Assembly: GCA_945787885.1 (NCBI GenBank)
Contig: CALZJF010000006.1
Coordinates: forward strand, 28,377-92,376
Origin: an uncultured Bacteroidales bacterium
GTDB taxonomy: Bacteria > Bacteroidota > Bacteroidia > Bacteroidales > Bacteroidaceae
Length of the DNA: 64,000 bases
Direction of reading: 5' to 3'
Shown: in pieces, positions 15,266-62,385 of the stretch
Layout of the letters: each line of letters begins with the position of its first letter
Position numbering within the stretch: the stretch's first letter is position 1
Translations under genes and position numbers: made by a program
Notes under the pieces: model-generated
What the model was told of the DNA's origin: nothing
Databases searched by the model: none
What the model saw: only the letters and a program-made list of their open reading frames with translations

Positions 15266-15458
15266 TAGGTAGGTTCTATCAATTAGTTTTCAATGCAAGG
15301 CAGTGTTTCTGTTTTACTTGGATGTCTTCACGCCTCTCGCACCGTATCTTTTTGTCTTTCATTCAGTCACGTAGCCCGCTACGCTCCCTCGTGAAAAACA
15401 AAAACCTACGGTACGATAGTCGCAAATACATCGCAAGCTAATTTATAGAACCTACCTA
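15266..15458 (-). mobile_element. 193-bp fold-back element, copy 1
   Basis: The ends are perfect 14-bp inverted repeats (TAGGTAGGTTCTAT and its complement). The whole element is an imperfect inverted repeat that could fold into one long hairpin whose tip is CGTAG-CGGG-CTACG. Other copies are at 33929, 35711, 59617 and 62194. This copy is in reverse orientation, which is the same sense as porP downstream of it. It has no credible ORF and no transposase. Confidence 0.85.
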
Positions 15459-15465
15459 TATATAA

Positions 15466-15486
15466 TTTGCGTGCGCGCGCACGTGA
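15466..15486. repeat. Alternating purine-pyrimidine tract next to fold-back copy 1
   Basis: GCGTGCGCGCGCACGTG follows directly after the element. Similar tracts occur at 33894-33926, 37395-37422 and 56960-56992. Such tracts can adopt Z-DNA. Confidence 0.5.
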
Positions 15487-15620
15487 GGCGGTGTGAATGT
15501 GCCGCCCATTTTCTATTAAATGTGCCGCGCCTTCAGGGCGTGCCGTGCGGTTTGCGTCATGTGGACAATTGTAGGTTTCGTGGCCCATTCAAATTTCCGA
15601 CATCGTTTCTTGGTTGCATG

Positions 15621-15707
15621 TAATCACTTCGAGGGGTGAAAATGATTGTTTTAGGGGTCAATGTGATTATTTTTTGGGTGGAAAATGGTCACTTGTGAGC
15701 GCGAAGC
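15621..15707. repeat. Phased 22-bp intergenic array B (4 units)
   Basis: Units TAATCACTT, TGATTGTTT, TGATTATTT and TGGTCACTT start at 15621, 15643, 15664 and 15686 (22, 21 and 22 bp apart). G-rich middles and A runs make them reverse-type relatives of arrays D, E and F. They lie between the divergent porP and fimbrial operons. Confidence 0.65.
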
Positions 15708-15929
15708 TCAGGCGTTGGCAAACGTTGCACCCCGAATCGTGGTCAATCCGCATGGCGCAATGCCCCAATCACATCGTTTTCCCTCCGCTTCCCCTGTGCT
15801 ATGATTTTTTTCCGTTGTCGCGCTTGTTAAATTTGATTTAACATTCTTTTTGTTTCGCAGCGCGTTATGTTTCTGATACGTCATTTCTGCATTGCAACTA
15901 ATGTGGGAATGTCGTTAATAGACACAAAA

Positions 15930-15960
15930 AAATTCAGATTTCTTGGGAAGAAATCTGAAT
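15930..15960 (-). terminator. Orphan minus-strand terminator hairpin
   Basis: A 14-bp perfect stem (AATTCAGATTTCTT arm, 3-nt loop) is followed on the minus strand by a run of T (from about 15931 down to 15925). No gene precedes it on the minus strand, so it suggests a short unannotated minus transcript starting between 15960 and 16300. Its core ATTTCTT-GGG-AAGAAAT recurs at 16201. Confidence 0.55.
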
Positions 15961-16084
15961 TGATGCCCAAAGGAACGGCTAAGTGCTGAATCCTCCAAAC
16001 AATTTGCCGTTTTTTTTCAGAATTTCTTTCATTTTTCCCCATTTTGCTCTCCAAAAGCCCCCAAATTGACATTGTTTTAGATAC

Positions 16085-16128
16085 GCCGTCGCATGGAATC
16101 GTATCGGCCGTCGCATGGAATCGCAACG
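16085..16128. repeat. 22-bp tandem duplication
   Basis: GCCGTCGCATGGAATCG plus five bases is present twice in succession at 16085 and 16107. It lies in the 15112-16299 intergenic region, which otherwise holds the fold-back element, array B and two ATTTCTT palindromes, and no supported gene. Confidence 0.6.
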
Positions 16129-16200
16129 GCTGCGGAGGGGATTTTCGGGGAAAATGGGGGTGGAGGTAGGAGAAATGTGTAGTAAACACAAGGGTTTAAG

Positions 16201-16217
16201 ATTTCTTCCCAAGAAAT
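16201..16217. promoter_or_regulatory. Palindrome ATTTCTT-CCC-AAGAAAT upstream of the fimbrial operon
   Basis: Perfect 7-bp arms about a 3-base centre, roughly 85 bp before the first fimbrial start codon. The same core with the centre inverted (GGG) is inside the hairpin at 15930-15960. It could be an operator; no binding protein is known. Confidence 0.4.
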
Positions 16218-16299
16218 ATAGCGTTGATGAACCTTAATTCTACGAAATCTTTGACCCGGAAACACCTCTAATTTACCTTGGCGAATGAGACGAAGCGGC

Positions 16300-17562
16300 A
16301 TGAAATACCTCATCTTTCTGATCCTTTTCCTCGCAGGCAGTGGAGCATTGTCGGCACAGGAGGCGGAAACCGACTCTATCGAGTTTCGGTTCGTCTTTCG
16401 TCAGGGCGTGTCAGACATCGACCTCAACTATCTCGACAATCGCCGGCTGCTGAATGAATATATGAGTAGGCTCCGCGCGCTCCTCGATGATACCGCCATC
16501 CACGTGAAGCGCATCAACGTCGAGTGCTCCGCGTCGCCCGAAGGCCCTATCGAGCGGAACCATCTCCTTGCTGCCGAGCGCGCATGGAACTTGCGGAATT
16601 ATCTCATCAACGCCGAAGGCCTGGCGCCGGGCATGGTGAAGACGCGAGTGGTAGGCATCAACTGGGACGGACTCGTGCGGTGGCTTGAGCAAAAGGAGCA
16701 TCCGCGGAAGGACGACATCATTTGCCTCATACAAACCTTCAAGACCACGAGCGACCTCGTCCTCGTCACGAAGCTCCGCGAGTTCTCCGACGGAAAAGTT
16801 TGGGAGTGGCTGCTGAAGGATGCCTTCCCCGAGCTGCGCAACGGCGTCGTCACCACCGTCTATTTCGACAAGCGCCGCCAGCCGCGTTGCCCCGAGCCGC
16901 CCCCCGCGCCGACTCCGAAGCCCGAGCCGCAGCCTGAGCTTCCGCCCCCCGCACAGCCCGACACGGTGGCTCCGCCCCCGCCGCCCCCGCCCCTTCCGCC
17001 CTACGATGCCGTGGCGGTGAAGACGAACCTCCTCTTCGATGCCCTCCTCGTGCCCAACCTCGGGCTGGAGATGAGCTTCGCCCGGCATTGGTCGGCAGGC
17101 GTGAGTGTGGATTTTGCCTGGTGGGATGATGCGAAGCGTCACAAATACTATCGGATATACGGTGCGGAGGTGGAGGGAAAATATTGGCTCCGCCCCCACG
17201 GCGCGCGCCCGATGTCAGGGCATCACTTCGGCGTCTATGCCCAGGCAGCCATCTACGACTTCGAGAATGGCGGGCGCGGATATATGGGCGGACGCCCCGG
17301 AGCTGCCATCTGGAAGGAGGCGAACTATGGCGTGGGCGTCAGCTACGGCTATTCCTGGCGCATCGTCCGCCATCTGCGTCTCGACTTCGTGGTCGGAGCA
17401 GGCTATTTCGGTGGCAAGATGAGGGAATATCATCCTGACGAGGAGTGCTACGTCTATGACCGCACGCGGCAGCTGCGCTTTTTCGGACTGACGAAGGCGG
17501 AGGTTTCCATCGTCTGGCAGTTCCCCTATGGTAAAAGAAGAAAGGAGGTGGGCCATGAGTAA
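16300..17562 (+). CDS. OmpA-like/DUF3575 outer-membrane protein of the fimbrial operon
   Basis: The protein is 420 residues from the ATG at 16300, which starts the signal peptide (MKYLIFLILFLAGSGALSAQ). Residues of about 25-190 resemble an OmpA-like periplasmic domain (ECSASPEGPIERNHLLAAER). A proline-rich linker (about 195-245) leads to a DUF3575-type beta-barrel domain, VAVKTNLLFDALLVPNLGLE to the end. Such proteins commonly open fimbrillin loci in Bacteroidales and may anchor or help assemble the fimbriae. The stop overlaps the start of the next gene (ATGAGTAA), so the two are translationally coupled. Confidence 0.8.
   Translation: MKYLIFLILFLAGSGALSAQEAETDSIEFRFVFRQGVSDIDLNYLDNRRLLNEYMSRLRALLDDTAIHVKRINVECSASPEGPIERNHLLAAERAWNLRNYLINAEGLAPGMVKTRVVGINWDGLVRWLEQKEHPRKDDIICLIQTFKTTSDLVLVTKLREFSDGKVWEWLLKDAFPELRNGVVTTVYFDKRRQPRCPEPPPAPTPKPEPQPELPPPAQPDTVAPPPPPPPLPPYDAVAVKTNLLFDALLVPNLGLEMSFARHWSAGVSVDFAWWDDAKRHKYYRIYGAEVEGKYWLRPHGARPMSGHHFGVYAQAAIYDFENGGRGYMGGRPGAAIWKEANYGVGVSYGYSWRIVRHLRLDFVVGAGYFGGKMREYHPDEECYVYDRTRQLRFFGLTKAEVSIVWQFPYGKRRKEVGHE
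17546..17562 (+). promoter_or_regulatory. Strong Shine-Dalgarno with stop/start overlap
   Basis: AAAGGAGG lies a few bases before the overlapping ATGAGTAA. Strong Shine-Dalgarno sequences are rare in Bacteroidota, so this one fixes the DUF5119 start at 17555. Confidence 0.7.
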
Positions 17563-18541
17563 CGCATTTCAATCTCTCCGCCGCCTCGGCGTCGTAGCGG
17601 CGTCAGTGGTGGCGATGGTCTCCTGCGAGGAGAAGGAGCTCTGCTTCGAGCATCCCCACGCCGCCAACATATCCGTGCGTGCGGACTGGACAGACTTTGC
17701 GGCGTGCGAAGAGCCCACGGGCATGACGGTGCGCTTCTATCCGCGCCATCTGGACTATGTCCGCACTGTGACGACGAACGACATCACGTATGCCGAGACG
17801 TATCTCCGCCGCGATGTGTATGACATTCTCGTCTTCAATCAGAGTCCGTCGGAGTTCGGCACCATCACCTTCGCCGACTTCGACCATTTCGACAGGGCGA
17901 CGGCCTATGCCTCGCCGCGCACTTCGGCTTGGTATGTGACGAAAGCCACGGAGCAGCTCGTACACAACCCTGAATGGCTGGGCATCGACACAAGCATGGG
18001 CCACAACGTGACGCAGGAAATGCTCGACGATGGCAAGGTGCATCAGATAGCCACCCTGCACCCCACGCCGCTGACGAAGCGCGTGCGCATCATCGTCCAT
18101 CTGAAGAATATCTACAACCTCGCTTCCACGCGTGCCTCCTTGGGCGGCTTGGCTGCCGGATGCCTGCTGAGCAAGCGGACACCGACTGCGGCTGCGGCGA
18201 CGCAGCTGTTTGAAAGCTGGAGCATCAGCTATGATAAGGATAATTTCAACAATGGTGTCATCACGGGCGAAGCCCTCAGTTTCGGATTGCCGCAGGGACA
18301 TGGCGGCTATGCCGGCTCGAATCAGCTCAGCCTCTCCTTCCTTCTGGTGGACCAGAAGACGGTGGTGAACGAAGACCTCTATGTCGGCAATCTCTTCAAA
18401 TATGATGCTGAGAAAGACGAATATACGGTGGAGGTGAGCATCGCGAAGCCTTTACCCGATGTCGATGCCGCTGGCGGCAGCGGCTTTGATGCCTCCGTGG
18501 ATGAATGGGGCGAAAACGTGAACATCGATTTGGAATTCTAA
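17555..18541 (+). CDS. DUF5119 lipoprotein (Mfa2/FimB-like fimbrial anchor or assembly protein)
   Basis: The protein is 328 residues from the ATG at 17555. A signal sequence with lipobox leads to Cys at about 25 (VVAMVSCEEKELC). The DUF5119 region ISVRADWTDFAACEEPTGMTVRFYP is followed by VYDILVFNQSPSEFGTITF and a transthyretin-like beta fold. It sits between the DUF3575 gene and the fimbrillin, the usual position for an anchor subunit. The exact role is inferred from synteny. Confidence 0.8.
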   Translation: MSNAFQSLRRLGVVAASVVAMVSCEEKELCFEHPHAANISVRADWTDFAACEEPTGMTVRFYPRHLDYVRTVTTNDITYAETYLRRDVYDILVFNQSPSEFGTITFADFDHFDRATAYASPRTSAWYVTKATEQLVHNPEWLGIDTSMGHNVTQEMLDDGKVHQIATLHPTPLTKRVRIIVHLKNIYNLASTRASLGGLAAGCLLSKRTPTAAAATQLFESWSISYDKDNFNNGVITGEALSFGLPQGHGGYAGSNQLSLSFLLVDQKTVVNEDLYVGNLFKYDAEKDEYTVEVSIAKPLPDVDAAGGSGFDASVDEWGENVNIDLEF

Positions 18542-18585
18542 GCGACAACAACAATTTATTTCTTAATCACTAAATCTTTATTATT

Positions 18586-19797
18586 ATGAAGAAGAATCTT
18601 ACAATGATGGCGTTCGTCGCCTGCGCAGCTCTGACTATCGTGAGCTGCTCGAATGACGAAGTGGCAGACTCCGCAGTAAAGCAGAAGGAGCAGGCAATTG
18701 AGTTCGGAACGTACGTAGGACGTGACGTTCAGAGCAGAGGTGCAGTAACTGACCTTGACGCCTTGAAGCAATCTACTGGAAAATTCGGCGTTTTTGCACA
18801 CTATACGCAGAATGCTGATTATTCAGCAGGTGCTACTGCTGCGAACTTCATGTATAACCAAGAGGTATCTTGGGATGGTGCTGCTTGGACTTATAGCCCT
18901 GTGAAGTACTGGCCGAACAATGGCTATTATCAGGCAGGTGTTGGTGAAGCACAGTACACAGATAAAATATCGTTCTTTGCATATGGTCCCTATCAGGATC
19001 ATAATGCTTATGGAGCAGCGGGAGTAATTGGAATGACATCTAACGCTGTTACCAGCGATCCTTGCCTTACTTTCACCACAGCAGCTGCGGTAAAAGATCA
19101 GGTTGACCTCGTTGCAGCACAGTTGATGAACCAGAAGAAGAAGGCACACGATGCCCAGATTAAATTCCCGTTTGAGCACGTTCTCTCCAGAGTTGGCTTT
19201 ACTGTAACGGCTATTGTGGATAATGCAACGGAACCTGATAACGTTGCAGGTGGTGGAGTTTTGGGTACAACTGGTATGCTTGACGCTAATACAAAGATTT
19301 ATGTGACGCAAGTAGATCTCATTGGCGATTTTGATACTGAGGCTACCTATAACCTCTACTCTAAAGCTTGGGGTGACAACGACACTCGTACCGAGCAAAC
19401 CTATTCTTGGACAGCTGCTGCTGATAACTTTGCGCAATACACGGCAAGTGCTGGTGTAAGTGCGTCTGATAATAAGCAAATTGTACTTGCATCAGGCGAA
19501 AATGCTCAGAAGAAAGTCAATGCAGACGATTCTTATGCAATGATTATTCCGCAGGCTGCAAAAAATGTGAGAATAAAAGTTACCTATAATGTTGTTACAG
19601 AAGATACTAATTTGAGTGGTGGTAAGAGTACTGTTTCAAACGTGGTTACTTCTAATCAGTTTGACATGACTTTTAATCAGGGCAAGGCTTATATGTTCAA
19701 CATTCGTCTGGGTATGACTTCTGTGAAGGTTGATGCTGCAGTTGCTGACTGGTCAGCTGATGAAGATGAGTTTGTAAATATTCCCTCGAACTACTAA
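18586..19797 (+). CDS. Fimbrillin family lipoprotein (major subunit candidate)
   Basis: The protein is 403 residues with a lipoprotein signal (MKKNLTMMAFVACAALTIVSC). The fimbrillin N-terminal pattern IEFGTYVGRDVQSRGAVTD contains Arg at about residue 45, near where FimA/Mfa1-type precursors are cut. Next are GKFGVFAHYTQ and WTYSPVKYWPNNG. The DNA is visibly more AT-rich than its neighbours, with many GCT/GTT/GAT codons, which fits either high expression or separate origin. A hairpin at 19839-19870 follows, which suggests this is the abundant structural subunit. Confidence 0.85.
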   Translation: MKKNLTMMAFVACAALTIVSCSNDEVADSAVKQKEQAIEFGTYVGRDVQSRGAVTDLDALKQSTGKFGVFAHYTQNADYSAGATAANFMYNQEVSWDGAAWTYSPVKYWPNNGYYQAGVGEAQYTDKISFFAYGPYQDHNAYGAAGVIGMTSNAVTSDPCLTFTTAAAVKDQVDLVAAQLMNQKKKAHDAQIKFPFEHVLSRVGFTVTAIVDNATEPDNVAGGGVLGTTGMLDANTKIYVTQVDLIGDFDTEATYNLYSKAWGDNDTRTEQTYSWTAAADNFAQYTASAGVSASDNKQIVLASGENAQKKVNADDSYAMIIPQAAKNVRIKVTYNVVTEDTNLSGGKSTVSNVVTSNQFDMTFNQGKAYMFNIRLGMTSVKVDAAVADWSADEDEFVNIPSNY

Positions 19798-19838
19798 TTC
19801 GGCTATCAATTTTCTTCATAACATAACTTAAATTAAAT

Positions 19839-19870
19839 GCGGGAGGTGCCGCATGATGGGCACCTCCCGC
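19839..19870 (+). terminator. Hairpin after the first fimbrillin gene
   Basis: 12-bp perfect stem (GCGGGAGGTGCC with GGCACCTCCCGC) and 8-nt loop, 42 bp after the stop. There is only a weak T run, so it may be a partial terminator or mRNA stabiliser before the second fimbrillin. Confidence 0.6.
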
Positions 19871-19926
19871 TACTTTCTACACGACTATTCACCACTGCGG
19901 CGTGGGCCGCATGGAATTTTCATATT

Positions 19927-20853
19927 ATGTTGAAGCACTTCCACCTTTCGCTATCTCTCCTTCTGCTACTCCTCGCTGGCGGACTCACTGCCTGCATGAA
20001 CGAGGGGAATGATGATTGTGGGGCTGAACAGGGAAAGCCCATCGAATTTTCCGCCGCCGCGGAAGAAGGTTGGCAAACGCGCGTCAGTGGAACCACCTTC
20101 AGCAGTGGCGACAAATTCGGCATTTTCGCTTTCTATGGCAGTAGCACTGAGCCGAACTTCATGAACAATCAGAAGGTGGAGTACGACGGCACGGCGTGGA
20201 CCTATTCCCCCATCAAATATTGGCCCACGAGCAACTATGCCGAGCTGACGTTCTATGCCTACTATCCCTACAAAGCGTCGACGACTCTGACGACTGAAAA
20301 AAAACTTACGTTTACCATGCCCGATGATGCTGACACAGACTTCCTCGTGGCAAGGAATACGCAATCGCGCGGTGCGATAACGCTGAATTTCACGCATCTG
20401 CTGGGCAAGGTGGTGTTCAAAATCATGCGCGCCCCCGCTGTTTCCTCATTCAACATCACTGGCATCACAGGGTTCAGCGTCACGGCAAATAGGACGCTTA
20501 CCTACGACTTTGCCCATCTCACCTCTACTTCTGAATCTTCTCCTGAAAATCCTTCTCTCCACACCTATACCCTCCAGCCCACGTTCACCTCTTCGCTCAC
20601 CGTCGGAGAGACGGAATCGGAAGTAGCCACGGGCTATTTCGTCCCCGGCGAACTGACGGGCGGCACTCTCATTCTCACCCGCGAAGGCGGCTCAACACCG
20701 ATGGCGATAACGATTCCGGCGAAAACCGTCGAGGCAGGGAAAACCTTGACCTACCACATCACCGTGACTCCCTCCTCCTCAGGGTCTTCTGCCGGACGGC
20801 GCGGAAACATCGCCACGGAATATGGCGTGAGGGTGGAAACGACGGCAGAATAG
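19927..20853 (+). CDS. Second fimbrillin family lipoprotein (minor or tip subunit candidate)
   Basis: The protein is 308 residues from the ATG at 19927, which begins the lipoprotein signal (LSLSLLLLLLAGGLTAC). An upstream in-frame ATG at 19837 would lie inside the hairpin and is rejected. It shares the fimbrillin pattern GDKFGIFAFYG, WTYSPIKYWPTSNYAELTFYAYYP, but has neighbour-like GC-rich codon use, unlike the first fimbrillin. The C-terminus is Ser-rich. It probably forms a minor or tip component. The 20854-21101 gap after it shows no gene. Confidence 0.8.
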   Translation: MLKHFHLSLSLLLLLLAGGLTACMNEGNDDCGAEQGKPIEFSAAAEEGWQTRVSGTTFSSGDKFGIFAFYGSSTEPNFMNNQKVEYDGTAWTYSPIKYWPTSNYAELTFYAYYPYKASTTLTTEKKLTFTMPDDADTDFLVARNTQSRGAITLNFTHLLGKVVFKIMRAPAVSSFNITGITGFSVTANRTLTYDFAHLTSTSESSPENPSLHTYTLQPTFTSSLTVGETESEVATGYFVPGELTGGTLILTREGGSTPMAITIPAKTVEAGKTLTYHITVTPSSSGSSAGRRGNIATEYGVRVETTAE

Positions 20854-21074
20854 CCCCCGCCGCCGCAGGGCAGCAGTGCGAGCGGCAGCGGCGGAGCGGA
20901 AAACGTCAGTCAGGCATAATCGTTCCCCCTTTTCCCTTTTTCATATTTATATTTTTTTGTTGTTTCTCGTCCCCTATAAGTCTTCTGGAAGCGGCTTCTT
21001 TCCGAATATGGCTTATAGGGGCTTTTCGTGGCGCGTTGCGGCGTGCGGCTTTTCCGCAGCATCGCCCTCCGCCT

Positions 21075-21146
21075 GCTCCTCAGCCTCGGGCGGCAGCCTC
21101 CTCAGCCTCTGGCGGCAGGCTCCTCAGCCTCTGGCGGCAGGCACTC
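21075..21146. repeat. About 22-bp tandem repeats over the rmuC 3' end
   Basis: CCTCAGCCTCTGGCGGCAGG-type units recur three times with a 21-24-bp period. They encode the PPEAEEPAARG end of RmuC and continue past its stop codon at 21102. Confidence 0.65.
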
Positions 21147-22574: not shown

Positions 22575-22639
22575 ATATATATATAGTGGGGAACAAAATT
22601 ATAATAAGGACTGAACCTGATGACAGGCACGCAGTAAGA

Positions 22640-22692
22640 AAAACGGCGGCTGTGCTGGCGTGGGCGGTGCGCGTCGCCCTCCAGCACAGCCG
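22640..22692 (-). terminator. Terminator of cysN
   Basis: A 12-bp stem (CGGCTGTGCTGG, 22647-22658, with 22681-22692) is followed on the minus strand by a T-rich run (22643-22638). It lies 42 bp after the cysN stop. Confidence 0.75.
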
Positions 22693-22733
22693 TCGCGGTT
22701 GTGGCGTGAAAGCCTGATGTTTCAGAAACTGCC

Positions 22734-24218: not shown

Positions 24219-24326
24219 AGTCAAAATGGGGGAAATATGGTCGTTGTATGTGTTTTGCCCGTGCGGACACGGATGTTTTGCCCATGCTTATATGCTGTTT
24301 TGCAGCGGCATAGCGGCTTACGACTG

Positions 24327-27567: not shown

Positions 27568-30141
27568 CTAAATGCTCTTCTCGTGGCGATGGAGGATATG
27601 GCGCAGGTCGGCCTGCTCGGTGCGGAGGGCTTCGATTTCAACGATGATGGCGGCCTGCTGCTGCTCCAGAGCCTGGGGAGATTCCGACGGGGAGTTGCTG
27701 GCGGGGCAACGCGGGTCGGACTGCAATGCCATATAGCGTTCCTCTGCCATCTTCATGCGTTCCGTCGCCACGATGAGGGCATGGCGACACTCCTCTATAG
27801 TGTGGCGGAGGAGCATCCAATCTCGTGTGTCGGAATAAAGTGCTTTCAGTTCTGCATTCTGAATGGCGCTGTGGGTCAGATTGTAGCGAGCGATGGCATG
27901 ATCGAGCGCAGTGGAGGTCTCGCGCAACTTCTCCTCCTGCTCTTTCCGACAGTTGGCCAGGCATACGAGTTCGCCTTCGAGCGCCGCCAGTGCCGCCTCC
28001 GCCGCATGAAGTTCGTTGTTCGTCGTCTCCAGTGCCTCACGCGCCGTCTGCACAGTCTCATGTAGCATGTTGTGCTGCTCCTGCGGTGTGGTGACGCCGA
28101 AGTCCTTGCGCAGCTGTTCGCGCTTAGACGCCAGGACCTCGCGCAGGCGGTCGCGTTCCTCGCGGTCAGCCTCCACCTTCTGCTTGCGCAGGCGCTGCTG
28201 CCGCTCTGCCGTCTCGACGCGGAGCATGAGCATGTCGTACTGATGCTGGCAGAGGGTCACCTGCTTGTTTGTCTGCGTCCAATCGTTGTAGAGCTCGGCG
28301 AGGTTCTTCATATAGTCGTCGGGAAGTTCGTCGCGCCATCCGCTGAGCGTGACGGTGTCGTCAAGGTCCTTGTAGAGATGCTCCAGCGTGGCGTCGCTCT
28401 CCGTCATGGCCTTTCTGAACATTTCTACGCGCTCATGGACGAGTTGGAGCTCGGTATCGATGTTCCAGTATTGTTGTTGCAGCTCATCAACGCGCTTCTC
28501 CGCCCTCTCCACCTCTCCGCTGACGGAGTAAAGCTGCTTCGTCTGGAACTCATAGACACGGATTTTCTGTTCCAAATCCTTGACGTGGCGGTCTTCCGAG
28601 TCGATAATCATCTCGATGGTAGTGCGTCGCGCCTCGCGATTGACATAGGGCGAGCATCCGGCGAATGAGGCATCGAGCTTTTCGAATCGTTTCCACTCCT
28701 CCACGAGAGCTTGCTGCGCCTCCATCATGCGCTGCAACATCAGGCGTTCAGCCTCAAGATGCCCTGCGAAGAGCTGTGCTTCTGCCGCCACCTCGCTGCT
28801 CGCCGCTCGCTGCGCATTGTAGGCATCGCGGGCTTCGAGGTAGTTTTTCTCGAGCTGCGTCTGCGTTTCGCCCAGTTCCTGCTCCACCTCCGTATGGTAA
28901 GGATGGTGTGCGCTGCCGCAGACAGGGCAGGGCACCCCCTCTTTCAGCCCTTCGCGGAGCTTCCGCGTCTGTTCGATTTGCAGGAGGATATACGCCTTGT
29001 TCAGCCGGAGATAGCGTTCTTCGAGCCGTCGCGTGTCGCGGTCAGCCACGTCAGCCTCCGCGCAGCGCTGCTCATATTGCCGCGTGAGGCGTTCGATAGT
29101 GGCGCGCTGCGTTTCGATGCCGCTGTAGCCCTCCATGATATTCTTCCATGCCGCGCGCGCCGATAGGAGCTGCACGCAGCGGTTCTGGTGTTCGGCATAG
29201 CTGTTGTAGAGGCGTGCGCTGTCCACCTCGTCGATTGTCTTTTCCAGTACTCGGAGGTCAGCGCGCAAGGCTTTCAGGCGTTCGTGCGCCGTCTGAAATT
29301 CCTTCTTGAGCCGCTCGTGCTGCAGCGTCACCTCATTCTGCCGCAGATTGTTCGCCGTGAAGTTCTGATGCAGCAGCTCGTTTGCCTTCGCCTCCGTGTT
29401 GTAGAGCTGGAGCTTGTCTTTGACGGCGTGGAAATGTTCGAAGAGGAGCTGATGTACATCGAGTGTCTGCTTCTTGAGTTTGAGAGCTTCGAGGCGTTTC
29501 TTCTCCTGTTCCGCCTCATTGCCTCTGGAGCGCAGGTCGGCCTCCGCCTCTGCCGCCATCCTGATGCTCTCGGCCAGAGCGTCCTCCATGTTGATAAGGT
29601 CGGCAGTGAGTTGCTGGATTTCGCCGTTCAGGATGAGTCCGGCGACGATGGTCTCCTGCTGCCGCGCCTGCTGTGCCTCAGAATCGCTCAGGCGTTCCTG
29701 TGCGATGCAGCACCGTTTCTTCAGGTCGGCAGCCCGATGCCGCGCCTCTTCGATACGCTGCGCAAGGGCATTCTCCTGCGCCTGTATGGAAGCGATGACG
29801 TTGCGGCGTTCGCCGATGCGCTCGTAGAGCGGCCGAAGCTCCTGCACATTGTCAGAGAGTTCGAGCCGCATCTCCTCGCCCCTCAGGGCGAGATATTGTT
29901 TGTTCACCTGCCCATGGTGGTGCGTGGCATCCTCCAGAAGTTCCGTAGCCTTCTGGTTCTCCTTGTACCATTCGAGCATTCCGTTGACGGTCTGCAACCT
30001 CTGCCGGCAGTTGGCGATGCAGACCGCCACATGGTGTTCGCGTTCGCGCGCCGTCTTGAGGTCAGCATCGCTGAGCTGCGGCGATGCAGCTGCATCCTGG
30101 CGCGCCATGAGGTCTGCGGTGATAGGACTGTTCTGTTGCAT
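27568..30141 (-). CDS. Zinc-hook coiled-coil protein, SbcC/Rad50-like without ATPase head
   Basis: The protein is 857 residues of almost unbroken coiled coil. A canonical SbcC/Rad50 zinc hook sits in the middle: EGVPCPVCGSAHHP, Cys 405 and 408, with about 400 residues before and 445 after. SbcC has an N-terminal Walker A lobe and a C-terminal lobe with the LSGG signature and Walker B; neither motif is present. There is no room for them: nrdG ends 15 bp upstream and the terminator begins 47 bp downstream. It is therefore either a decayed SbcC or a distinct headless structural protein dimerising through zinc. The frame is clean and long, which favours function. It is probably co-transcribed with nrdG. 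Confidence 0.8.
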   Translation of the reverse strand: MQQNSPITADLMARQDAAASPQLSDADLKTAREREHHVAVCIANCRQRLQTVNGMLEWYKENQKATELLEDATHHHGQVNKQYLALRGEEMRLELSDNVQELRPLYERIGERRNVIASIQAQENALAQRIEEARHRAADLKKRCCIAQERLSDSEAQQARQQETIVAGLILNGEIQQLTADLINMEDALAESIRMAAEAEADLRSRGNEAEQEKKRLEALKLKKQTLDVHQLLFEHFHAVKDKLQLYNTEAKANELLHQNFTANNLRQNEVTLQHERLKKEFQTAHERLKALRADLRVLEKTIDEVDSARLYNSYAEHQNRCVQLLSARAAWKNIMEGYSGIETQRATIERLTRQYEQRCAEADVADRDTRRLEERYLRLNKAYILLQIEQTRKLREGLKEGVPCPVCGSAHHPYHTEVEQELGETQTQLEKNYLEARDAYNAQRAASSEVAAEAQLFAGHLEAERLMLQRMMEAQQALVEEWKRFEKLDASFAGCSPYVNREARRTTIEMIIDSEDRHVKDLEQKIRVYEFQTKQLYSVSGEVERAEKRVDELQQQYWNIDTELQLVHERVEMFRKAMTESDATLEHLYKDLDDTVTLSGWRDELPDDYMKNLAELYNDWTQTNKQVTLCQHQYDMLMLRVETAERQQRLRKQKVEADREERDRLREVLASKREQLRKDFGVTTPQEQHNMLHETVQTAREALETTNNELHAAEAALAALEGELVCLANCRKEQEEKLRETSTALDHAIARYNLTHSAIQNAELKALYSDTRDWMLLRHTIEECRHALIVATERMKMAEERYMALQSDPRCPASNSPSESPQALEQQQAAIIVEIEALRTEQADLRHILHRHEKSI

Positions 30142-33558: not shown

Positions 33559-33570
33559 GAGGCAGAAAAT

Positions 33571-33928: not shown

Positions 33929-34121
33929 TAGGTAGGTTCTATAAATTAGCTTGTGATGTATTTGCGACTATCGTGCCGTAGGTTTTTGTTTTTCATGAGG
34001 GAGCGTAGCGGGCTACGTGACTGAATGAAAGACAAAAAGATACGGTGCGAGAGGCGTGAAGACATCCAAGTAAAACAGAAGCACTGCCTTACATTGAAAA
34101 CTAATTTATAGAACCTACCTA
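33929..34121 (+). mobile_element. 193-bp fold-back element, copy 2
   Basis: Same 14-bp inverted ends and same length as copy 1, opposite orientation. It ends 38 bp before the CotH-like start codon and is in the same sense as that gene. Confidence 0.85.
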
Positions 34122-35710: not shown

Positions 35711-35904
35711 CAGGAAGGTGCTATCAGTTAGCTTGCGATGTGTTCGCGGCTATCATGCCGTAGGTTTTAGGTCTTCATGGGGGAGCATGGCGGGCTATGT
35801 GGCCGGATGAAAACCAAAAACCTATGGTGCGAGAGGCATGAAGACATCCAGGTAAGACATGAACACTGCCTTCCCTTGAAAGCTAATTGATGGAATCTGC
35901 CTAC
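35711..35904 (+). mobile_element. Fold-back element, diverged copy 3
   Basis: Full length but many substitutions relative to the other copies. Its ends are degenerate (AGGAAGGTGCTATC and GGAATCTGCCTA). The stem is kept: the tip reads CATGG-CGGG-CTATG in place of CGTAG-CGGG-CTACG, a paired change. It starts 22 bp after the CotH-like stop. Confidence 0.8.
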
Positions 35905-35942
35905 AAAAATGTGGGGTTCAACAAACTGTTTGCCGTCAGGGC

Positions 35943-36006
35943 AAAAAAAAATGGGATACCGCTGTACCCCAATCTTGTTAACCTTAAATCTAATACTATG
36001 AAAAAC
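35943..36006 (-). ncRNA. Putative compact small RNA (about 64 nt) with own promoter and terminator
   Basis: A minus-strand promoter (TTG, 20-bp spacer, TACCTTTG at 36020-36013) predicts a start near 36006. The transcript contains AGTATTAGATTTAAGG and then a hairpin, GGGGTAC-AGCG-GTATCCC (7 bp with one G-U), followed by nine T (35951-35943). No ORF fits. The rest of the 35690-36196 gap holds fold-back copy 3 and no gene. The phrase looks like a recurrent Prevotella intergenic sequence, but I cannot name an Rfam family. Confidence 0.6.
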
Positions 36007-36012
36007 ACGATG

Positions 36013-53234: not shown

Positions 53235-53298
53235 GCACTTGCGGATGGCATTCGAGCCTTATGATAAGGTGAGAGTGAGACTTTTTCGGGAGAAAACC

Positions 53299-53328
53299 TT
53301 GCGGAAGTGACGAAATAGCGTAACTTTG
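53299..53328 (+). promoter_or_regulatory. Promoter of rpsO
   Basis: TTG (53299-53301), a 19-bp spacer and TAACTTTG (53321-53328) on the plus strand, 64 bp before rpsO. The leader contains a small hairpin (TCTCCC-TT-GGGAGA) where S15 autoregulation could act, though this is only a guess. Confidence 0.65.
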
Positions 53329-53392
53329 CACGCGGTTTCTCCCTTGGGAGACTCCATCCTTTTATCTTTTATTCTATTCTTTCATTCACACC

Positions 53393-53662
53393 ATGTACTT
53401 AGATTCTGCTAAGAAGACTGAGATCTTTGGAACGTACGGAAAGTCTAACACCGACACGGGTTCTGCTGAGAGCCAGGTGGCTTTGTTCTCCTACCGTATC
53501 TCCCATCTGACGGAACACATGAAGCGCAACCGTAAAGATCATACTACTGAACGCGCACTTGTAAAACTCGTAGGTAAGCGCCGCGCGCTGCTCCGTTATC
53601 TCAAGGAGCGCGACATCGAGCGTTATCGCGCCATCGTGAAGAGCCTCGGCCTCCGCAAGTAA
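53393..53662 (+). CDS. rpsO: Ribosomal protein uS15
   Basis: The protein is 89 residues, the standard length. GTYGKSNTDTGSAESQVALF and HLTEHMKRNRKDHTTERALV, then VGKRRALLRYLKERD are classic S15 sequence. It binds the 16S rRNA three-way junction at an early step of 30S assembly. Own promoter and terminator. Confidence 0.98.
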   Translation: MYLDSAKKTEIFGTYGKSNTDTGSAESQVALFSYRISHLTEHMKRNRKDHTTERALVKLVGKRRALLRYLKERDIERYRAIVKSLGLRK

Positions 53663-53694
53663 ATTGCCGGACTACGATTTGCAATCAAAACAAG

Positions 53695-53740
53695 AAATCC
53701 CGATACCGACACATGTGGTCAGTATCGGGATTTTTCGGCT
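53695..53740 (+). terminator. Terminator of rpsO
   Basis: A 16-bp stem (AAATCCCGATACYGAC, 53695-53710, with 53719-53734; one mismatch) ending in a T run. Confidence 0.9.
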
Positions 53741-53885
53741 TTCTGCTATCGCCTCCCCCCTACTTAAGGCGTGATAGTCAAGGGCTTTCTATGACCCGCT
53801 CCCAGCAAATTTTCAAGTTACTCCTTGATATTCACCGTTTTTTCAGTGTAATATCTACATGGGAAAGGTAAAAAGTTCTGTAAAA

Positions 53886-53917
53886 TTTGTGCCTTCACCT
53901 ATTGATTTGTAAATTTG
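53886..53917 (+). promoter_or_regulatory. Promoter of leuS
   Basis: TTTG (53886-53889), a 20-bp spacer and TAAATTTG (53910-53917) on the plus strand, about 120 bp before leuS. Confidence 0.75.
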
Positions 53918-54035
53918 CAACCTCTTTTTAGCCAATTCTGCTGCAGCCCACGGGCGAGAAAATGCTGGCAGACTCGGCATACAGCCAACGAACACTATAG
54001 AAAGACAAACACTGACAGACAAATACTGACAGAAA

Positions 54036-56888: not shown

Positions 56889-56959
56889 ACTATGCTTGGG
56901 CACTGGAGTCGCTGTGTTGCCCGTCGAGCAGACAGCGACTCCTCGTGGCCAGACTCTTG

Positions 56960-56992
56960 TTCGCGCGCGTACACGCGCACGCGTAATATATA
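56960..56992. repeat. Alternating purine-pyrimidine tract after leuS
   Basis: CGCGCGCGTACACGCGCACGCG-type alternation joined to a TA tract. It is the fourth such tract in the window. Confidence 0.5.
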
Positions 56993-57080
56993 TGTAGGTG
57001 TCTGTGGCGGATAAAATAGATAATCTTGCTGCAGTGCTTTCTCTTCCTATCATCCATCAACTATTGTCTGTTGAGAGAAT

Positions 57081-58091
57081 ATGACATTTTCCATCAAGAC
57101 GAGTCTGTCAAGAGACATCGCTGACTATTCAGTCATCACCATCGGTCTGCTTCTTTACGCCGTTGGCTTTAATTGTTTTCTCCTTCCCTTTGAGGTCGCA
57201 ACGGGTGGCTTAGCGGGTGCTGGTGCGATTATCTTCTATGCCACTGGCTTTTGGAAGGTGCAGTACACCTATTTCCTTTGCAACATCCTCCTGCTCGTAG
57301 CAGCTGTGAAGATTTTGGGATGGAAATTCTGTATCAAGACCATCTTTGCCGTCTTTATGCTCACCTTCCTGCTCTCGGCTACGGAGGGGTTGATGCAATG
57401 GTTCTACAGGCTGAGCCCTGATTTCTTTCCCAGTTTCAACGAGCATGTACGGCTGCCGCAGCTCACGGACAATGCTTTCATGAGCACCATCTTCGGCGCT
57501 GCCCTCTGCGGTTTAGGCATTGCCCTTGTGTTCGGGCGTGGCGGTAGTACGGGCGGAACGGATATCATCGCTTCCATCACCCACAAATATCGCGACATCT
57601 CGCTCGGAACGGTGATGATGATTTGCGACGTCCTCATCATCACCTCATCCATGCTCTTGCCGGGAGCCAATCTTGTGCAACTTATCTATGGTTACACTAC
57701 GCTCCTCGTGACGAACCTGACGCTCGACTATGTGTATAACAGCAAACGACAGTCGGTGCAGTTCCTCATTATCTCCAAAAAGTATGAGGAAATAGCCACT
57801 GCCATCAATATCTATCACCGCGGAGTCACCGTGCTTGATGCCACAGGATGGTACACAAAGCAGCCAACAAAGGTGCTGATGGTGCTGACGCGGAAGAATG
57901 AGAGCAATCATATCTTTGCCATTATCCAGAGCATCGACCGTGCTGCCTTCGTCTCGCAGACGCGTGCTGCAGCCGTCTTCGGCGATGGCTTCGACACCAT
58001 GCGCCGTATGAAGGTGAAAGACCAGAAGGTGCAGGCTGCGCTGGCTGACTCGCACCATGACTTCGAGCAGAAGGAATGCAGCAAAAATTGA
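57081..58091 (+). CDS. YitT family membrane protein (DUF161/DUF2179)
   Basis: The protein is 336 residues. Five or six transmembrane helices (about residues 18-220) include the family phrases GFNCFLLPFEVATGGLAGAG and GIALVFGRGGSTGGTDIIA. A cytoplasmic DUF2179 domain follows (about 225-315: VQFLIISKKYEEIATAI, RGVTVLDATGWYTKQPTKVL). Function unknown; transport or sensing is suspected. Its 3' end overlaps the next gene by 16 bp. Confidence 0.92.
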   Translation: MTFSIKTSLSRDIADYSVITIGLLLYAVGFNCFLLPFEVATGGLAGAGAIIFYATGFWKVQYTYFLCNILLLVAAVKILGWKFCIKTIFAVFMLTFLLSATEGLMQWFYRLSPDFFPSFNEHVRLPQLTDNAFMSTIFGAALCGLGIALVFGRGGSTGGTDIIASITHKYRDISLGTVMMICDVLIITSSMLLPGANLVQLIYGYTTLLVTNLTLDYVYNSKRQSVQFLIISKKYEEIATAINIYHRGVTVLDATGWYTKQPTKVLMVLTRKNESNHIFAIIQSIDRAAFVSQTRAAAVFGDGFDTMRRMKVKDQKVQAALADSHHDFEQKECSKN

Positions 58092-58885
58092 CAGTCGTAC
58101 CGCAGGGGGGCTTGTGTAACCGCCTCAGACTCCTCTTCTCTATCATGGAGGCTGAAGCCTTCGGAGCACGAAATATCAGCATACATTGGGCGAAGAATGC
58201 TGAATGCAGGGCTTGGTTTGAAGAGCTTTTTGAGACGGTTGATACTGAAAATCTTCGCGTCGTACATAGAAAATGGTGGGCTATCCCAATACGTCGGCAG
58301 AACCTGTGGGTGCCTGGATTCATCAGAGGCTTGATGGGCTACGGCAGGCAGTATGTAAATTATCTGCCAGAGAGCGATGAAGCCTTCAAAAGCCTGCTCC
58401 AGCGTCAGCGACGCATCTACATCTCGTCGGGATTCAGCCTTTGCGAATATTCTCAACAGACGATGTCGCGCCTGAAGCCCTTGCCCGCTTTGCGAAGACG
58501 CATTGATGAACTCGTGGCCAGATGCGGGGAGCGAGCCATCGGCGTACACATCCGACGCACTGACAATGTGGTGTCCATGCAGCACAGTACGCCCGACGGA
58601 TTTCGACGCGCCATGTGGCGAGCCATGCAGCAGCATCCAGAAGCCCGGTTCTTCCTTGCTACGGACGATGCTGCATTGAAGGCTGAACTTCTCAGCGAGT
58701 TTGGTGAGCGAATCGTCACCCAGCAGACTGAAGTGAGGCGAGATACGGTTGAAGGTATGCGCGATGCCGTCGTTGACCTTTGGTGTCTCGCTGCCACACA
58801 ACGCATCATCGGCTCTTACTGGAGCTCCTTCACGGATATTGCTGCAGAATTGGGTGGCATATCAGCAGAAATCGTTATGGATTGA
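58076..58885 (+). CDS. Putative fucosyltransferase-superfamily glycosyltransferase
   Basis: The protein is 269 residues. The N-terminal QGGLCNRLRLLFSIMEAEAF is a variant of the GGLGNR start of GT11/GT23-like fucosyltransferases. The diagnostic GDP-fucose motif HxRRxD is present in AIGVHIRRTDNVVS (about residues 155-168), followed by RFFLATDDAALKAEL and DLWCLAATQRIIGSYWSSF. The gene overlaps yitT by 16 bp and stands between yitT and rdgB, which are usually adjacent in this order in relatives. It may be an added cargo gene. Donor and acceptor are unknown. Confidence 0.72.
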   Translation: MQQKLTVVPQGGLCNRLRLLFSIMEAEAFGARNISIHWAKNAECRAWFEELFETVDTENLRVVHRKWWAIPIRRQNLWVPGFIRGLMGYGRQYVNYLPESDEAFKSLLQRQRRIYISSGFSLCEYSQQTMSRLKPLPALRRRIDELVARCGERAIGVHIRRTDNVVSMQHSTPDGFRRAMWRAMQQHPEARFFLATDDAALKAELLSEFGERIVTQQTEVRRDTVEGMRDAVVDLWCLAATQRIIGSYWSSFTDIAAELGGISAEIVMD

Positions 58886-58995
58886 CGTGCAAGGAGGAGT
58901 AGGGCCTTGCGGCGGAAAAGATTTCTGCCTGCCAGGAAATACATAGCTTTAACGATGGGACTTATAGCCCCCACCTATACTTACAAAAAAGAAAC

Positions 58996-59574
58996 ATGAA
59001 ACTCGTAATTGCTACCAATAACGCTCATAAATTGTCTGAAATCAGAGACATCCTTGGGCAGAAGGTCGAACTGCTCAGTCTGGCAGACATTGATTGCTAC
59101 GACGATATCCCCGAGACATCAGACACGCTCGAAGGCAACGCATTGCAGAAGGCGCGCTATATCTATGAAAGATATGGATTAGACGTCTTTGCTGACGATA
59201 CGGGACTTGAGGTTACTGCGCTCAATGGGCGTCCTGGTGTCTTCACTGCTCGATATGCCTTCCCCGACAGACATGATACGGAGGCCAACACGACGAAGCT
59301 TCTCGGCGAGCTTGATGGCGTGGCTGACCGTACCGCACGTTTTCGTACGGCCATTGCCCTGATTTTGGATGGCAAAGAGCATGTCTTTGAAGGAATCGTC
59401 AATGGCGAGATTGCCACGGAGCGCAGAGGTACTGATGGCTTTGGCTACGACCCCGTCTTTATTCCAGAAGATACGGGCAAGACGTTTGCAGAATTGGGCG
59501 TAGAGCAGAAGAATCAGATGTCGCACCGCGCCAGAGCCGTGCGCAAACTCTGCGATTTTATTTTGGCACTCTGA
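58996..59574 (+). CDS. rdgB: dITP/XTP pyrophosphatase RdgB (HAM1)
   Basis: The protein is 192 residues. It opens [19 protein letters not shown]. Key parts are [34 protein letters not shown], the catalytic [16 protein letters not shown] and the family ending [11 protein letters not shown], where the common SHR is kept. It removes non-canonical purine nucleotides (dITP, XTP) before they enter DNA or RNA. Confidence 0.96.
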
Positions 59575-59616
59575 GTCTTTGCTGACCTTAGATGTTTCTT
59601 CATGTCAAGATAATAG

Positions 59617-59813
59617 TTAAGGTAGGTTCTATAAATTAGCTTGCGATGTATTTGCGACTATAGTGCCGTAGTTTTTTGTTTTTCACGAGGGAGCGTAGCG
59701 GGCTACGTGACTGAATGAAAGACAAAAAGATACGGTGCGAGAGGCGTGAAGACATCCAAGTGAAACAGAAACACTGCCTTACATTGAAAACTAATTTATA
59801 GAACCTACCTTAA
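59617..59813 (+). mobile_element. Fold-back element, copy 4
   Basis: The inverted ends extend to TTAAGGTAGG...CCTACCTTAA, 197 bp in all. Nearly identical body to copies 2 and 5. Ends 16 bp before the PorZ-like start codon and is in the same sense. Confidence 0.87.
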
Positions 59814-59828
59814 GTATAAATACTTTTT

Positions 59829-62195
59829 ATGAGCAGATTTATATTTATCCTGTTCCTCGTGTTCCTGCCTTTCGTCATTCCCGTTCAGGCAGCCCCCTAC
59901 GATGTATGGTCCTCATACTATAATCTCCGCTCTGCATCGCAAATTGTAGATGCGGGCGACCGTGTCTTTGCGCTGATGAATGACAATGTAGTGGTGTATG
60001 ATGTGAAGACGGGCGAGGTGAAGACCGTTGACAAGGTTTCGGAGGGATTGTCAGATGCCGGAGTGGCTTTCATTGGGTATAGCCGTAGCCAGAAGAGTCT
60101 CGTCATTGTCTATCAAAATGGCAATATCGACGTTTGGCGGGTTGATAGAGACGAGGTTGTCAATGTGCCGCAGTTTAAGGATAATCCTGATAATGTGTTC
60201 GGACTGAACAATCTCTTTGTCAACGACGATGATGCTGTCATCAGTACGGACGAGGGCGTTATATGGCTTTCCGTCAAAGATGCCGTCATCATCGGGCGCT
60301 ATGCCGTGGGTAAGTGTTCTTCAGGCGGTGTCTTCGGTGGATATATCTATGCAGGCACGACGGCTGATGGCACCAAACGCGCAGCTTTGTCAAGCAATCT
60401 CCTCGATAGCTCTGTCTGGCAGACTTTCGGTGGTGGTGAAGTCACGGATATGTGCGTCCTCGGCGACAGGATGTTCTATGTCATTGCCTATAGTTACAGT
60501 ACGAACAACTATAAGATCTATGGCCTTTGGTCAGTCTCACCCAAGGAGGGCAAGAAGCATGTGCTGATGGAAAAGTTCACAGACCTTACGGGCAATGAGC
60601 ATCGGGTAGTAGCATTGCGTGCGGGGAACATCCTTGAAATTTCAAAAGACGACATCACCAATCCTAAGCAGTATGATATTGCTGAAGACTATCAGGTCAT
60701 TACGCCCTGTGGAAAGGCGGACGGCTATTGGACTTCTACCATTTCGGCAGCATTGCAGCACTGCAACTATGCTCAGGCTTCTGGGCTTGTGCCCGACCAA
60801 ACGCCTATCGAAGGCGATGGGCCCTTCTGTGAATATCCCTACTTCATGAGATATTACAACGGAAAACTCTATGTGGCTGGTGGACGTACTGACCCTGACG
60901 ACAAGGAACACCATACCTACAACGCCATGTATATGACCGAAGATGGCGTTTGGCATGAGATGGAACGCCCCACCGAGGAAGGCGGATGGCTGAAGAAGCG
61001 TGTAGAGGTATTTCAGGATGCTACTTCCATCGTAGAAGATGTGGCTGACCCTACACACCATTTCGTCACCTCTGGTCGTCATGGTGTCTTCGAGTATCGC
61101 AATGATAAGCTTGTGGCACAATATACGCAGGGAAATTCGCCTATCGAGTCCTGCTCATCGAGCAAGAGTCATGACTTTGTGCGCACTGATGCTGCACTGA
61201 TGGACAGTCAGGGCAATCTTTTCGTTGCCAATGATGCACGAGACACGGTCATCTGGTGTCGAAAACCGTCAGGAAAATGGATTCCTTTCTATTATCCCAC
61301 TATCAGCAATGCGGGAAATATGGAGAAATCTATCATCGACAGCAAAGGGCGCCTATGGTTCGTCAACCGACGCTATGATGGCAACTGCCATGGTGGTGTC
61401 TTGCGCATTGATTATGGCGCGTCCGTTGATGATACCTCTGACGATGACTATGCCTTCGTCGAAAAATTCGTCAATCAGGACAATACTTCTTTCTCCTTCC
61501 AAGTGGCTAACTGTCTGGCGCAGGATAAGGACGACCGTATATGGATTGGTACCGACGGCGGACTGGTCGTTGTCGATGACCCTGACCAATGGAGTGAGAG
61601 CAGTAGTTTCCGCATCACGCAGGTGAAAGTGCCGCGCAACGATGGTACGAACTATGCCGACTATCTTCTTAGTGCAGTTAATATCACTGCCATTGCCATC
61701 GATGGAGCTAACCGTAAGTGGATTGGAACCGCCGGCGACGGCGTTTATTTCCTCTCTCCCGATGGTATCACCCAGTATCATCATTTCACCAAGGAGAATA
61801 GTCCGCTGATTTCAAACAATATCCATTCCATTGTCTGCCATCCTAAGTCTGGAGAGGTGTTCATTGCCACTGACCTCGGAATGCTTAGCTATCAGAGCGA
61901 TGCCTCCGAGGCTGAATCTGTCCTTTCCAGAGATAACCTGAGGGTTTACCCCAACCCTGTTCGTCCCGATTATAACGGTCCCATTGTTCTTGATGGGCTG
62001 GTCTATGACTGCGATGTCAAAGTTGTGGCAGTTGGAGGACAGGCTGTTGCCGCCGGCACCAGCAACGGCGGAACTTTCACCTGGGATGGTCGTGGCAGCA
62101 ACGGTCAGCGAGTGGCGAGCGGTGTCTATCATTTTATGATTACCACGTCAGACGGTAAAGAGACCGTAGCAGCGAAGGTTGCCGTCATCAGATAA
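59829..62195 (+). CDS. porZ: PorZ-like T9SS surface component (two beta-propellers, T9SS C-terminal domain)
   Basis: The protein is 788 residues with a signal peptide ending near VQAAPY (about residue 22), close to the length of P. gingivalis PorZ. The first propeller starts VWSSYYNLRSASQIVDAGDR and continues VFALMNDNVVVYDVKTGEV, then EGLSDAGVAFIGYS, IVYQNGNIDVWRV. Two-component-regulator-type propeller blades follow (DDRIWIGTDGGLVVVDDP, RKWIGTAGDGVYFLSPDG). The C-terminal beta domain (RVYPNPVRPDYNG ... SGVYHFMITTSDGKE) fits a T9SS sorting domain. PorZ delivers A-LPS to the attachment complex in P. gingivalis. A generic T9SS propeller cargo is the alternative. Fold-back elements flank the gene. 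Confidence 0.75.
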   Translation: MSRFIFILFLVFLPFVIPVQAAPYDVWSSYYNLRSASQIVDAGDRVFALMNDNVVVYDVKTGEVKTVDKVSEGLSDAGVAFIGYSRSQKSLVIVYQNGNIDVWRVDRDEVVNVPQFKDNPDNVFGLNNLFVNDDDAVISTDEGVIWLSVKDAVIIGRYAVGKCSSGGVFGGYIYAGTTADGTKRAALSSNLLDSSVWQTFGGGEVTDMCVLGDRMFYVIAYSYSTNNYKIYGLWSVSPKEGKKHVLMEKFTDLTGNEHRVVALRAGNILEISKDDITNPKQYDIAEDYQVITPCGKADGYWTSTISAALQHCNYAQASGLVPDQTPIEGDGPFCEYPYFMRYYNGKLYVAGGRTDPDDKEHHTYNAMYMTEDGVWHEMERPTEEGGWLKKRVEVFQDATSIVEDVADPTHHFVTSGRHGVFEYRNDKLVAQYTQGNSPIESCSSSKSHDFVRTDAALMDSQGNLFVANDARDTVIWCRKPSGKWIPFYYPTISNAGNMEKSIIDSKGRLWFVNRRYDGNCHGGVLRIDYGASVDDTSDDDYAFVEKFVNQDNTSFSFQVANCLAQDKDDRIWIGTDGGLVVVDDPDQWSESSSFRITQVKVPRNDGTNYADYLLSAVNITAIAIDGANRKWIGTAGDGVYFLSPDGITQYHHFTKENSPLISNNIHSIVCHPKSGEVFIATDLGMLSYQSDASEAESVLSRDNLRVYPNPVRPDYNGPIVLDGLVYDCDVKVVAVGGQAVAAGTSNGGTFTWDGRGSNGQRVASGVYHFMITTSDGKETVAAKVAVIR

Positions 62196-62385
62196 GGTAG
62201 GTTCTATCAATTAGCTTGCGATGTATTTGCGACTATCGTGCCGTAGGTTTTTGTTTTTCACGAGGGAGCGTAGCGTGCTACGTGACTGAATGAAAGACAA
62301 AAAGATACGGTGCGAGAGGCGTGAAGACATCCAAGTAAAACAGAAACACTGCCTTACATTGAAAACTAATTTATAGAACCTACCA
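62194..62385 (+). mobile_element. Fold-back element, copy 5
   Basis: About 192 bp with AAGGTAGGTTCTAT and ATAGAACCTACC ends. Its first bases overlap the PorZ-like stop codon (TAAGG), and it ends 46 bp before the HU start. Same orientation as copies 2, 3 and 4. Confidence 0.87.

Follow-up and report, generated by a model that had tools for sequence, protein, structure and literature searches.

What are the short fold-back repeats that occur five times within 64 kb of the genome of an uncultured Bacteroidales bacterium, and why has their fold persisted? The window, by which we mean the entire stretch of 64,000 nucleotides that was analysed, comprises positions 28,377 to 92,376 of contig CALZJF010000006.1 (GenBank assembly GCA_945787885.1). 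An initial annotation made from the letters alone had described a self-complementary repeat, and had proposed either miniature inverted-repeat transposable elements (MITEs) or a family of structured leader RNAs. The repeats are copies of a 189 bp non-autonomous mobile element, a MITE, and this element belongs to a superfamily that extends across several genera and has at least four kinds of ends and one interior plan. We favour, as a reasonably probable overall explanation, a MITE superfamily that is mobilised in trans and whose interior is kept as RNA.

All five copies were confirmed in the window, at starts that had been placed accurately to within 2 bases, and a scan for the ends and the apical hairpin found no sixth copy there. 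The element proper has the ends GGTAGGTTCT...AGAACCTACC and measures 189 bp; the size of about 193 bp assigned at first was slightly too large, the surplus bases being mostly target duplication. The copies are as follows.

15268..15456, minus strand: element copy 1, flanks TATA/TATA
33931..34119, plus strand: element copy 2, the query and reference copy, flanks TATA/TAAT, no exact duplication
35713..35901, plus strand: element copy 3, older, 81% identity to copy 2, flanks TACA/TACA
59621..59809, plus strand: element copy 4, flanks TTAA/TTAA
62196..62384, plus strand: element copy 5, flanks ATAA/ATAA

An exact 4 bp target duplication surrounds four of the five copies, the one at 33931 being the exception, and the three remaining younger copies are 97, 97 and 97% identical to it. 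Inverted ends had been reported as 14 bp long; they are indeed present, but the arms reach 32–38 nt (85–89% complementary) in four window copies, while the same inverted-repeat scan of the window reported no arms inside the copy at 35713. There is no transposase within the element, as had been noted, nor any long reading frame (the longest stop-to-stop frame of the consensus has 57 codons).

The genome to which the window belongs (G000; 2,700,494 bases in 96 contigs, 91% complete) holds many further copies. A 24-base arm pattern (at most 3 mismatches) occurs at 178 places, 87 forward and 91 reverse, compared to 0 for the reversed-pattern control, and with about 178 copies of 189 bp the element makes up approximately 1.2% of the genome. 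For closer analysis, 73 near-complete copies were taken from the window, 60 fetched regions and 4 search loci, corresponding to the hits listed first among the 178, and 20 partial BLAST pieces were set aside. The 4 bases beside GG...CC are identical on both sides in 58 of the 73 copies, where mismatched flank pairs predict 5.4, with TATA, TTTA, TAAA and TTAA as preferred targets. Nearly all copies (71/73) have no overlap with genes predicted by a home-made codon-based gene finder. Some are inserted in other elements, and closing such a site restores the host element; in the clearest nested case (L072) the flanks, once joined, align without gaps to 72 bases of an uninterrupted copy (L056) with 87.5% identity. 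The element thus has terminal inverted repeats and a target duplication, is short and multicopy, and lacks a transposase gene, and the MITE proposal is supported by the duplications, the copy number and the insertions into other repeats. Recent spread, which had been suggested from the similarity of the window copies, is supported by the 62 of 73 copies whose identity to copy 33931 is 95% or more, and by a copy in Prevotella sp. P5-108 (G058) that is identical to the local consensus at 189 of 189 positions.

The P5-108 copy is the only one found there by its ends (flanks ATTA/TTTA, no exact duplication), and a genome of another genus (G216, L222) carries a copy that is identical at 185 of 189 positions and flanked by TTAC/TTAC; the element has therefore moved between species recently. 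A DDE_Tnp_1_3 transposase (PF13612; L026 5105-6040, minus strand), which we take by eye to be IS982-like, lies 330 bases from the P5-108 copy. Among viral contigs, neither type A nor type D ends (two of the end types defined below) were found (0 each), and the apical hairpin was found in one contig, IMGVR_UViG_3300029972_000137, as part of a type-A-like element (L224, hairpin at 8659-8679), so phages or prophages may carry the element. Type C ends occurred in 78 viral contigs, and the spaced pairs inspected proved to be chance matches, for example within a long reading frame. A search of plasmids with the element gave no match, and the only phage hit was a weak one of 36 bases (E 0.2) to a record without annotation.

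The element's DNA was matched in 20 of 58 genomes of the genus, its own included, and searches with ends alone returned elements mostly of 175–209 bp. The apical motif TCACRTAGCYCGCTAYGCTCC (at most 4 mismatches) is present in 25 of the 29 non-redundant elements of at least 150 bp found in this manner; two others possess the apical stem only, with a C(C/T)CG loop, and two have neither. With at most 1 mismatch, the motif is present in 29 of the 301 genomes scanned from the taxonomic family, representing 12 of 30 genera (reversed control: 0 among the matches listed), and it is often multicopy, as with 67 occurrences in one genome (G012) and 42 in another (G057). Elements of 170–209 bp share an interior that consists of a side arm, a long imperfect stem and an apical hairpin, and this interior is common to four end types.

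Type A: ends GGNNNGTTCTAWNAATT, 4 bp duplication in 55 of 68 cases here (5.1 expected) and 39 of 61 elsewhere (7.1 expected)
Type B: ends AGTAGGT..., always at TA
Type C: ends GARNCTGTTTNAAATTT, 3 bp duplication TTA or TAA, 11 of 13 (5.6 expected)
Type D: ends GTGAYG..TAAAAAATAA, 3 bp duplication in 7 of 11 (3.2 expected), a modest excess

An apparent TA duplication in type B (10/11 and 3/3) was rejected, as the control gave equal values (10.0 and 3.0) and indicates a TA target only. Types A and B coexist in the window's genome, where chimeras with a type A half and a type B half, joined at the apical hairpin, were seen by eye beside L042 and in L077. There are also shortened forms: two derivatives in the same genome (L052, L053) retain bases 1-39 and 130-193 of the element and have lost its middle, and the type A elements of relatives include 10 of 42–134 bp.

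The terminal repeats and the parts of the predicted fold can be located in the window copies.

33931..33949, plus strand: copy 2, left terminal inverted repeat, GGTAGGTTCTATNAATTAG
34101..34119, minus strand: copy 2, right terminal inverted repeat
34000..34020, minus strand: copy 2, apical hairpin TCACGTAGCCCGCTACGCTCC (the plus strand reads GGAGCGTAGCGGGCTACGTGA)
34070..34092, plus strand: copy 2, side arm, a short extra hairpin beside the right end, based on the fold of this copy
15367..15387, plus strand: copy 1, apical hairpin
35782..35802, minus strand: copy 3, apical hairpin, 2 mismatches to the consensus
59690..59710, minus strand: copy 4, apical hairpin
62265..62285, minus strand: copy 5, apical hairpin, 1 mismatch

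The self-complementarity that had been recognised in the repeat goes beyond chance: positions 33929-34121 fold with −91 kcal/mol, compared to a mean of −42.7 for shuffled sequences (z −11.2), and none of 200 shuffles was as good. Conservation of the fold was analysed on 36 representatives that are less than 82% identical (median pairwise identity 0.66), of which 34 were aligned (alignment A3) and 2 with runs of N dropped. Members of A3 were chosen by the apical motif, those of a second set of 20 nearer sequences (A2) by similarity or ends. On A2, RNAalifold yielded no more than the apex, the outer stem and some of the side arm, since the long stem is blurred in a sequence alignment; structures were then derived from averaged pair probabilities. 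With a 69-pair structure, 73.4% of cells in A3 pair (57.1 when shuffled, at most 46.3 when slid), and 422 double-change cells keep pairing; shuffling gives 171 such cells and sliding no more than 184. For the covariation score of 0.375, the corresponding values are 0.141 after shuffling and no more than 0.159 after sliding. In A2 there are 111 double-change cells versus 48 shuffled and at most 41 slid. Pairing in the apical stem reaches 99.4% of cells in A3 and 97% in A2.

A further property of the fold is its strand preference. We designate as short-arm-right the strand that corresponds to the plus strand of copy 33931. In all 34 representatives this strand is more stable as RNA than its complement, by a mean of 14.9 kcal/mol. 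At unpaired positions this strand tends to have G.U or G.A and the opposite strand A.C or C.U, and parsimony assigns to the former 68 changes to G.U versus 43 to A.C (p = 0.022). A mutation bias can be excluded as the cause of the G.U pairs, since recent mutations in the 73 local copies are evenly split (43 and 48, p = 0.68). On the short-arm-right strand the apical hairpin is flanked by 5'-GGAGC...GUGAC-3', with GA facing GA, so that tandem sheared G.A pairs could form beside the apical stem.

The same strand is also preferred as the sense strand between co-directional genes. Where the element lies between co-directional genes of its own genome, the short-arm-right strand is sense in 36 of 52 pairs (p = 0.008), a count that omits the 21 of 73 copies outside such pairs. 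In other genomes the corresponding figure is 37 of 59 (p = 0.067), with 53 of 112 copies omitted (9 gene overlaps, 14 between divergent or convergent genes, 30 without both neighbours). When pooled, 73 of 111 pairs are sense (p = 0.0012). That one fold was kept across different transposon ends suggests that the folded RNA itself matters, and we consider selection on the fold moderately supported by the comparative data. The proposed leader RNA may also be partly right, as the interior behaves as a strand-specific RNA fold. A covariance-model search found no Rfam family above the gathering cut-off on the window element, nor on elements in 20 relatives' loci.

Several observations weigh against selection on an RNA fold, or against mobilisation in trans by a related enzyme. 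The 34 elements share ancestry, so the 34 concordant foldings are not independent tests, and the structures tested came from the same sequences, which inflates the percentage of pairing, if not obviously the double changes. Counted by columns, the bias to G.U over A.C is weak (31 vs 23, p = 0.34), and in the side arm of A2 it is reversed (16 vs 3). Recent copies decay irrespective of the fold, and no selection is seen on single copies. Stricter gene calls reduce the orientation bias in the own genome to 21 of 31 (p = 0.07), and two of the 29 elements found by their ends lack the hairpin. With regard to the enzyme, PF01609, PF13586 and the IS5 protein described below have no match in the window's genome; as this assembly is only 91% complete, the absence of a partner is not final. 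Among the transposase loci that were read (L304-L335, L396-L425), type C ends are the only ones found beside a transposase; ends of types A, B and D flank none.

A candidate partner could be assigned to one end type. It is an insertion sequence (IS) of about 858–860 bp in G276 and G126 (L332, L333) that encodes an IS5-family transposase (NF033580 with 198.6 bits at a cut-off of 110; PF01609 and PF13340). In G276, a shorter IS copy (L309) has a right end in common with a MITE (L361): 23 bases of it recur at one end of the MITE and 22 at the other. Exact 3 bp duplications flank 2 of 4 IS copies, and where exact they are TTA or TAA in the IS and in the type C MITEs alike. The type C relatives are IS5-derived MITEs, having matching IS ends and 3 bp duplications, and their interior is not derived from the IS copies read. 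Relatives of the IS5 protein occur in 6 of the 25 genomes tested, namely all four type C genomes included (G276, G126, G108 and G129), as well as G149 and, marginally, G171; within the same 25 they are absent from 13 genomes of the window's genus and from the window's own genome. Of 18 element-rich genomes, 15 contained PF01609, and the 30 loci listed for them were read for ends; PF13586 occurred in 2 of 12 genomes, with both loci read, as were the loci of the IS5 protein.

The initial annotation had named two outcomes that would refute it, a genome search without further copies and a match to a known tRNA-like or IS-end family, and neither occurred; IS ends that match were seen solely for this other end type of the superfamily. 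Searches of the own genome and of relatives found no autonomous element with the window's GGTAGGTTCTAT ends. Five places in the own genome where ends do not continue into the element were considered as candidates and rejected: four turned out to be chimeras or short pairs, and the fifth was a single end close to the edge of its contig. Among the matches listed for type A ends in 24 and 19 genomes of relatives, the pairs inspected were all short, with no autonomous partner. Some IS5-family groups make 2–4 bp duplications. The 4 bp duplication of the window's type A would suit that family, to which we do not assign it.

Taken together, we envisage that a DDE transposase acting in trans would recognise the ends and move the element by cut and paste; for the GARNCTGTTT-ended kind this would be an IS5-family enzyme and for the window's kind probably a similar one. 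Insertion would take place between genes, at short AT-rich targets. Read-through from the upstream gene would then yield a sense transcript of the short-arm-right strand that may fold as a compact hairpin within the messenger RNA. The use that we find most plausible, although we propose it only tentatively and would not call it likely, is that this fold makes insertions between co-transcribed genes tolerable by acting as an insulating or processing hairpin, such that elements that keep the fold spread while those losing it are purged. Somewhat doubtful, if worth considering, is the notion that selection acts on the interior as a selfish structured RNA module, marked by one folding strand and an apical hairpin with tandem G.A pairs, that has used at least four sets of transposon ends, and hence different transposases, while its fold was kept, changing vehicles.

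In the main alternative, the pairing would persist without any selection on RNA. In ordinary MITEs with a passive interior from one ancestral palindrome, template switching between the arms would keep them matched, and several data are in line with this: all elements are long near-palindromes, the tree contains many double changes that replace a Watson-Crick pair directly by a different one (22 in the ends, 70 in the stem, 22 in the apex), the arms of local copy L049 are, by eye, almost perfectly matched where the consensus is mismatched, and the decay of local copies is unbiased. We think this rather unlikely, as template switching should favour neither strand, yet every representative folds better on the same one and that strand is enriched in sense orientation; it also leaves unexplained why the 21-base apical hairpin is the part best conserved across different ends. 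The hairpin might instead be a DNA site, recognised as duplex or extruded cruciform by the transposase or by some host factor aiding transposition, the interior being kept for mobility. That the conserved block is short, that its sequence and not pairing alone is kept, and that settled copies are unselected would all fit a need during movement only. A duplex site, however, should prefer neither the fold of one strand nor an orientation within operons, and the middle may be dispensable for movement because copies with internal deletions exist (L052, L053 and the 10 short elements mentioned above), so that we regard a DNA site as quite unlikely.

A regulatory leader or trailer RNA that serves the host and just happens to lie within mobile ends would account for the strand-specific fold, the sense bias and the proximity of both neighbours in sense co-directional pairs (median distances of 58.5 and 62 bases). 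We consider it improbable, since there is no Rfam match, the Bacteroidetes-type promoter motif (TAnnTTTG) was not found in the element consensus, the insertion site is set by short AT-rich targets and settled copies drift. Even less can be said for REPIN-like elements moved by a RAYT (HUH) transposase, which we judge highly improbable. HUH transposition is not known to make target duplications, and here clear 4 bp and 3 bp duplications are found. Two end types contain GTAG (GGTAGG, AGTAGG), while the remaining ones do not; this recalls the GTAG-tagged REPs as described in the available part of PMC3733652.

A few features adjoin the elements. An RNA of the FopS family of small RNAs (RF04319, 76.6 bits) lies at window positions 35941-36008 on the minus strand, about 40 bases past the oldest copy (35713-35901), and a DUF805b RNA (RF02914, 36.5 bits) at L217 1103-1137 on the plus strand, about 100 bases past a type D element. 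Another repeat, with runs like AAAATGACCATTTTNACCCCTCAAAGTGATCACT and small hairpins, often adjoins elements in the own genome, being present in the flanks in L054, L041, L070, L073, L078 and L082. The start of a 16S ribosomal RNA gene is found at the edge of the window (63717-64000, plus strand).

A MITE is usually identified from its ends, and its interior can vary freely. Here, in 12 of the 30 genera sampled within a major gut family, an interior fold is kept across different ends. Should this fold act as RNA, it would provide a testable case of selection on the behaviour of a non-coding mobile element in host transcripts, and a way to study how such small elements outlast a change of transposase. 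In practical terms, the high copy number will disturb assembly, annotation and RNA sequencing of related strains.

A literature search, which covered few subscription journals, found no account of the present element, and it may be compared with several known systems. PINSR of Prevotella intermedia is a 188 bp repeat with 177 and 184 copies in two strains, according to the available part of its report (PMC4755523). Judged by description only, and from that part, it resembles our element in being intergenic, of nearly equal length and copy number, and from the same broad group (PMC4755523). Its authors state there that it lacks terminal inverted repeats and is unrelated to MITEs, whereas inverted repeats are present in our element. 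The MITEs of Porphyromonas gingivalis (BrickBuilt, MITE239 and MITE464/PgRS) come from the same order as the host, and in the sections available their ends match IS of the IS5 family (ISPg1, ISPg4: GAGAC...), like the GAGCCTGTTT type here (PMC4596501). BrickBuilt and 464/PgRS have internal tandem repeats, the end sequences of these MITEs are not those found here, and those sections mention no counterpart of the interior (PMC4596501). Among IS5-family IS (NF033580), the one in G276 shares 22–23 end bases with a member of the superfamily, and the searches gave no IS with the window's end type. In Neisseria, the Correia elements (NEMIS) are alike in action, being high-copy MITEs that are transcribed as a hairpin and cut by RNase III, as summarised in the accessible part of a review (PMC10969869); by description they are set apart by other ends, another host and another interior. 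Prokaryotic MITEs in general, as far as that text covers them, are likewise short, intergenic elements with paired ends and duplications, without a transposase, and with stable stem-loop transcripts (PMC10969869). What distinguishes the present superfamily from them is that one fold with a conserved apical hairpin, strand-specific and covarying, extends across differing ends and duplication lengths.

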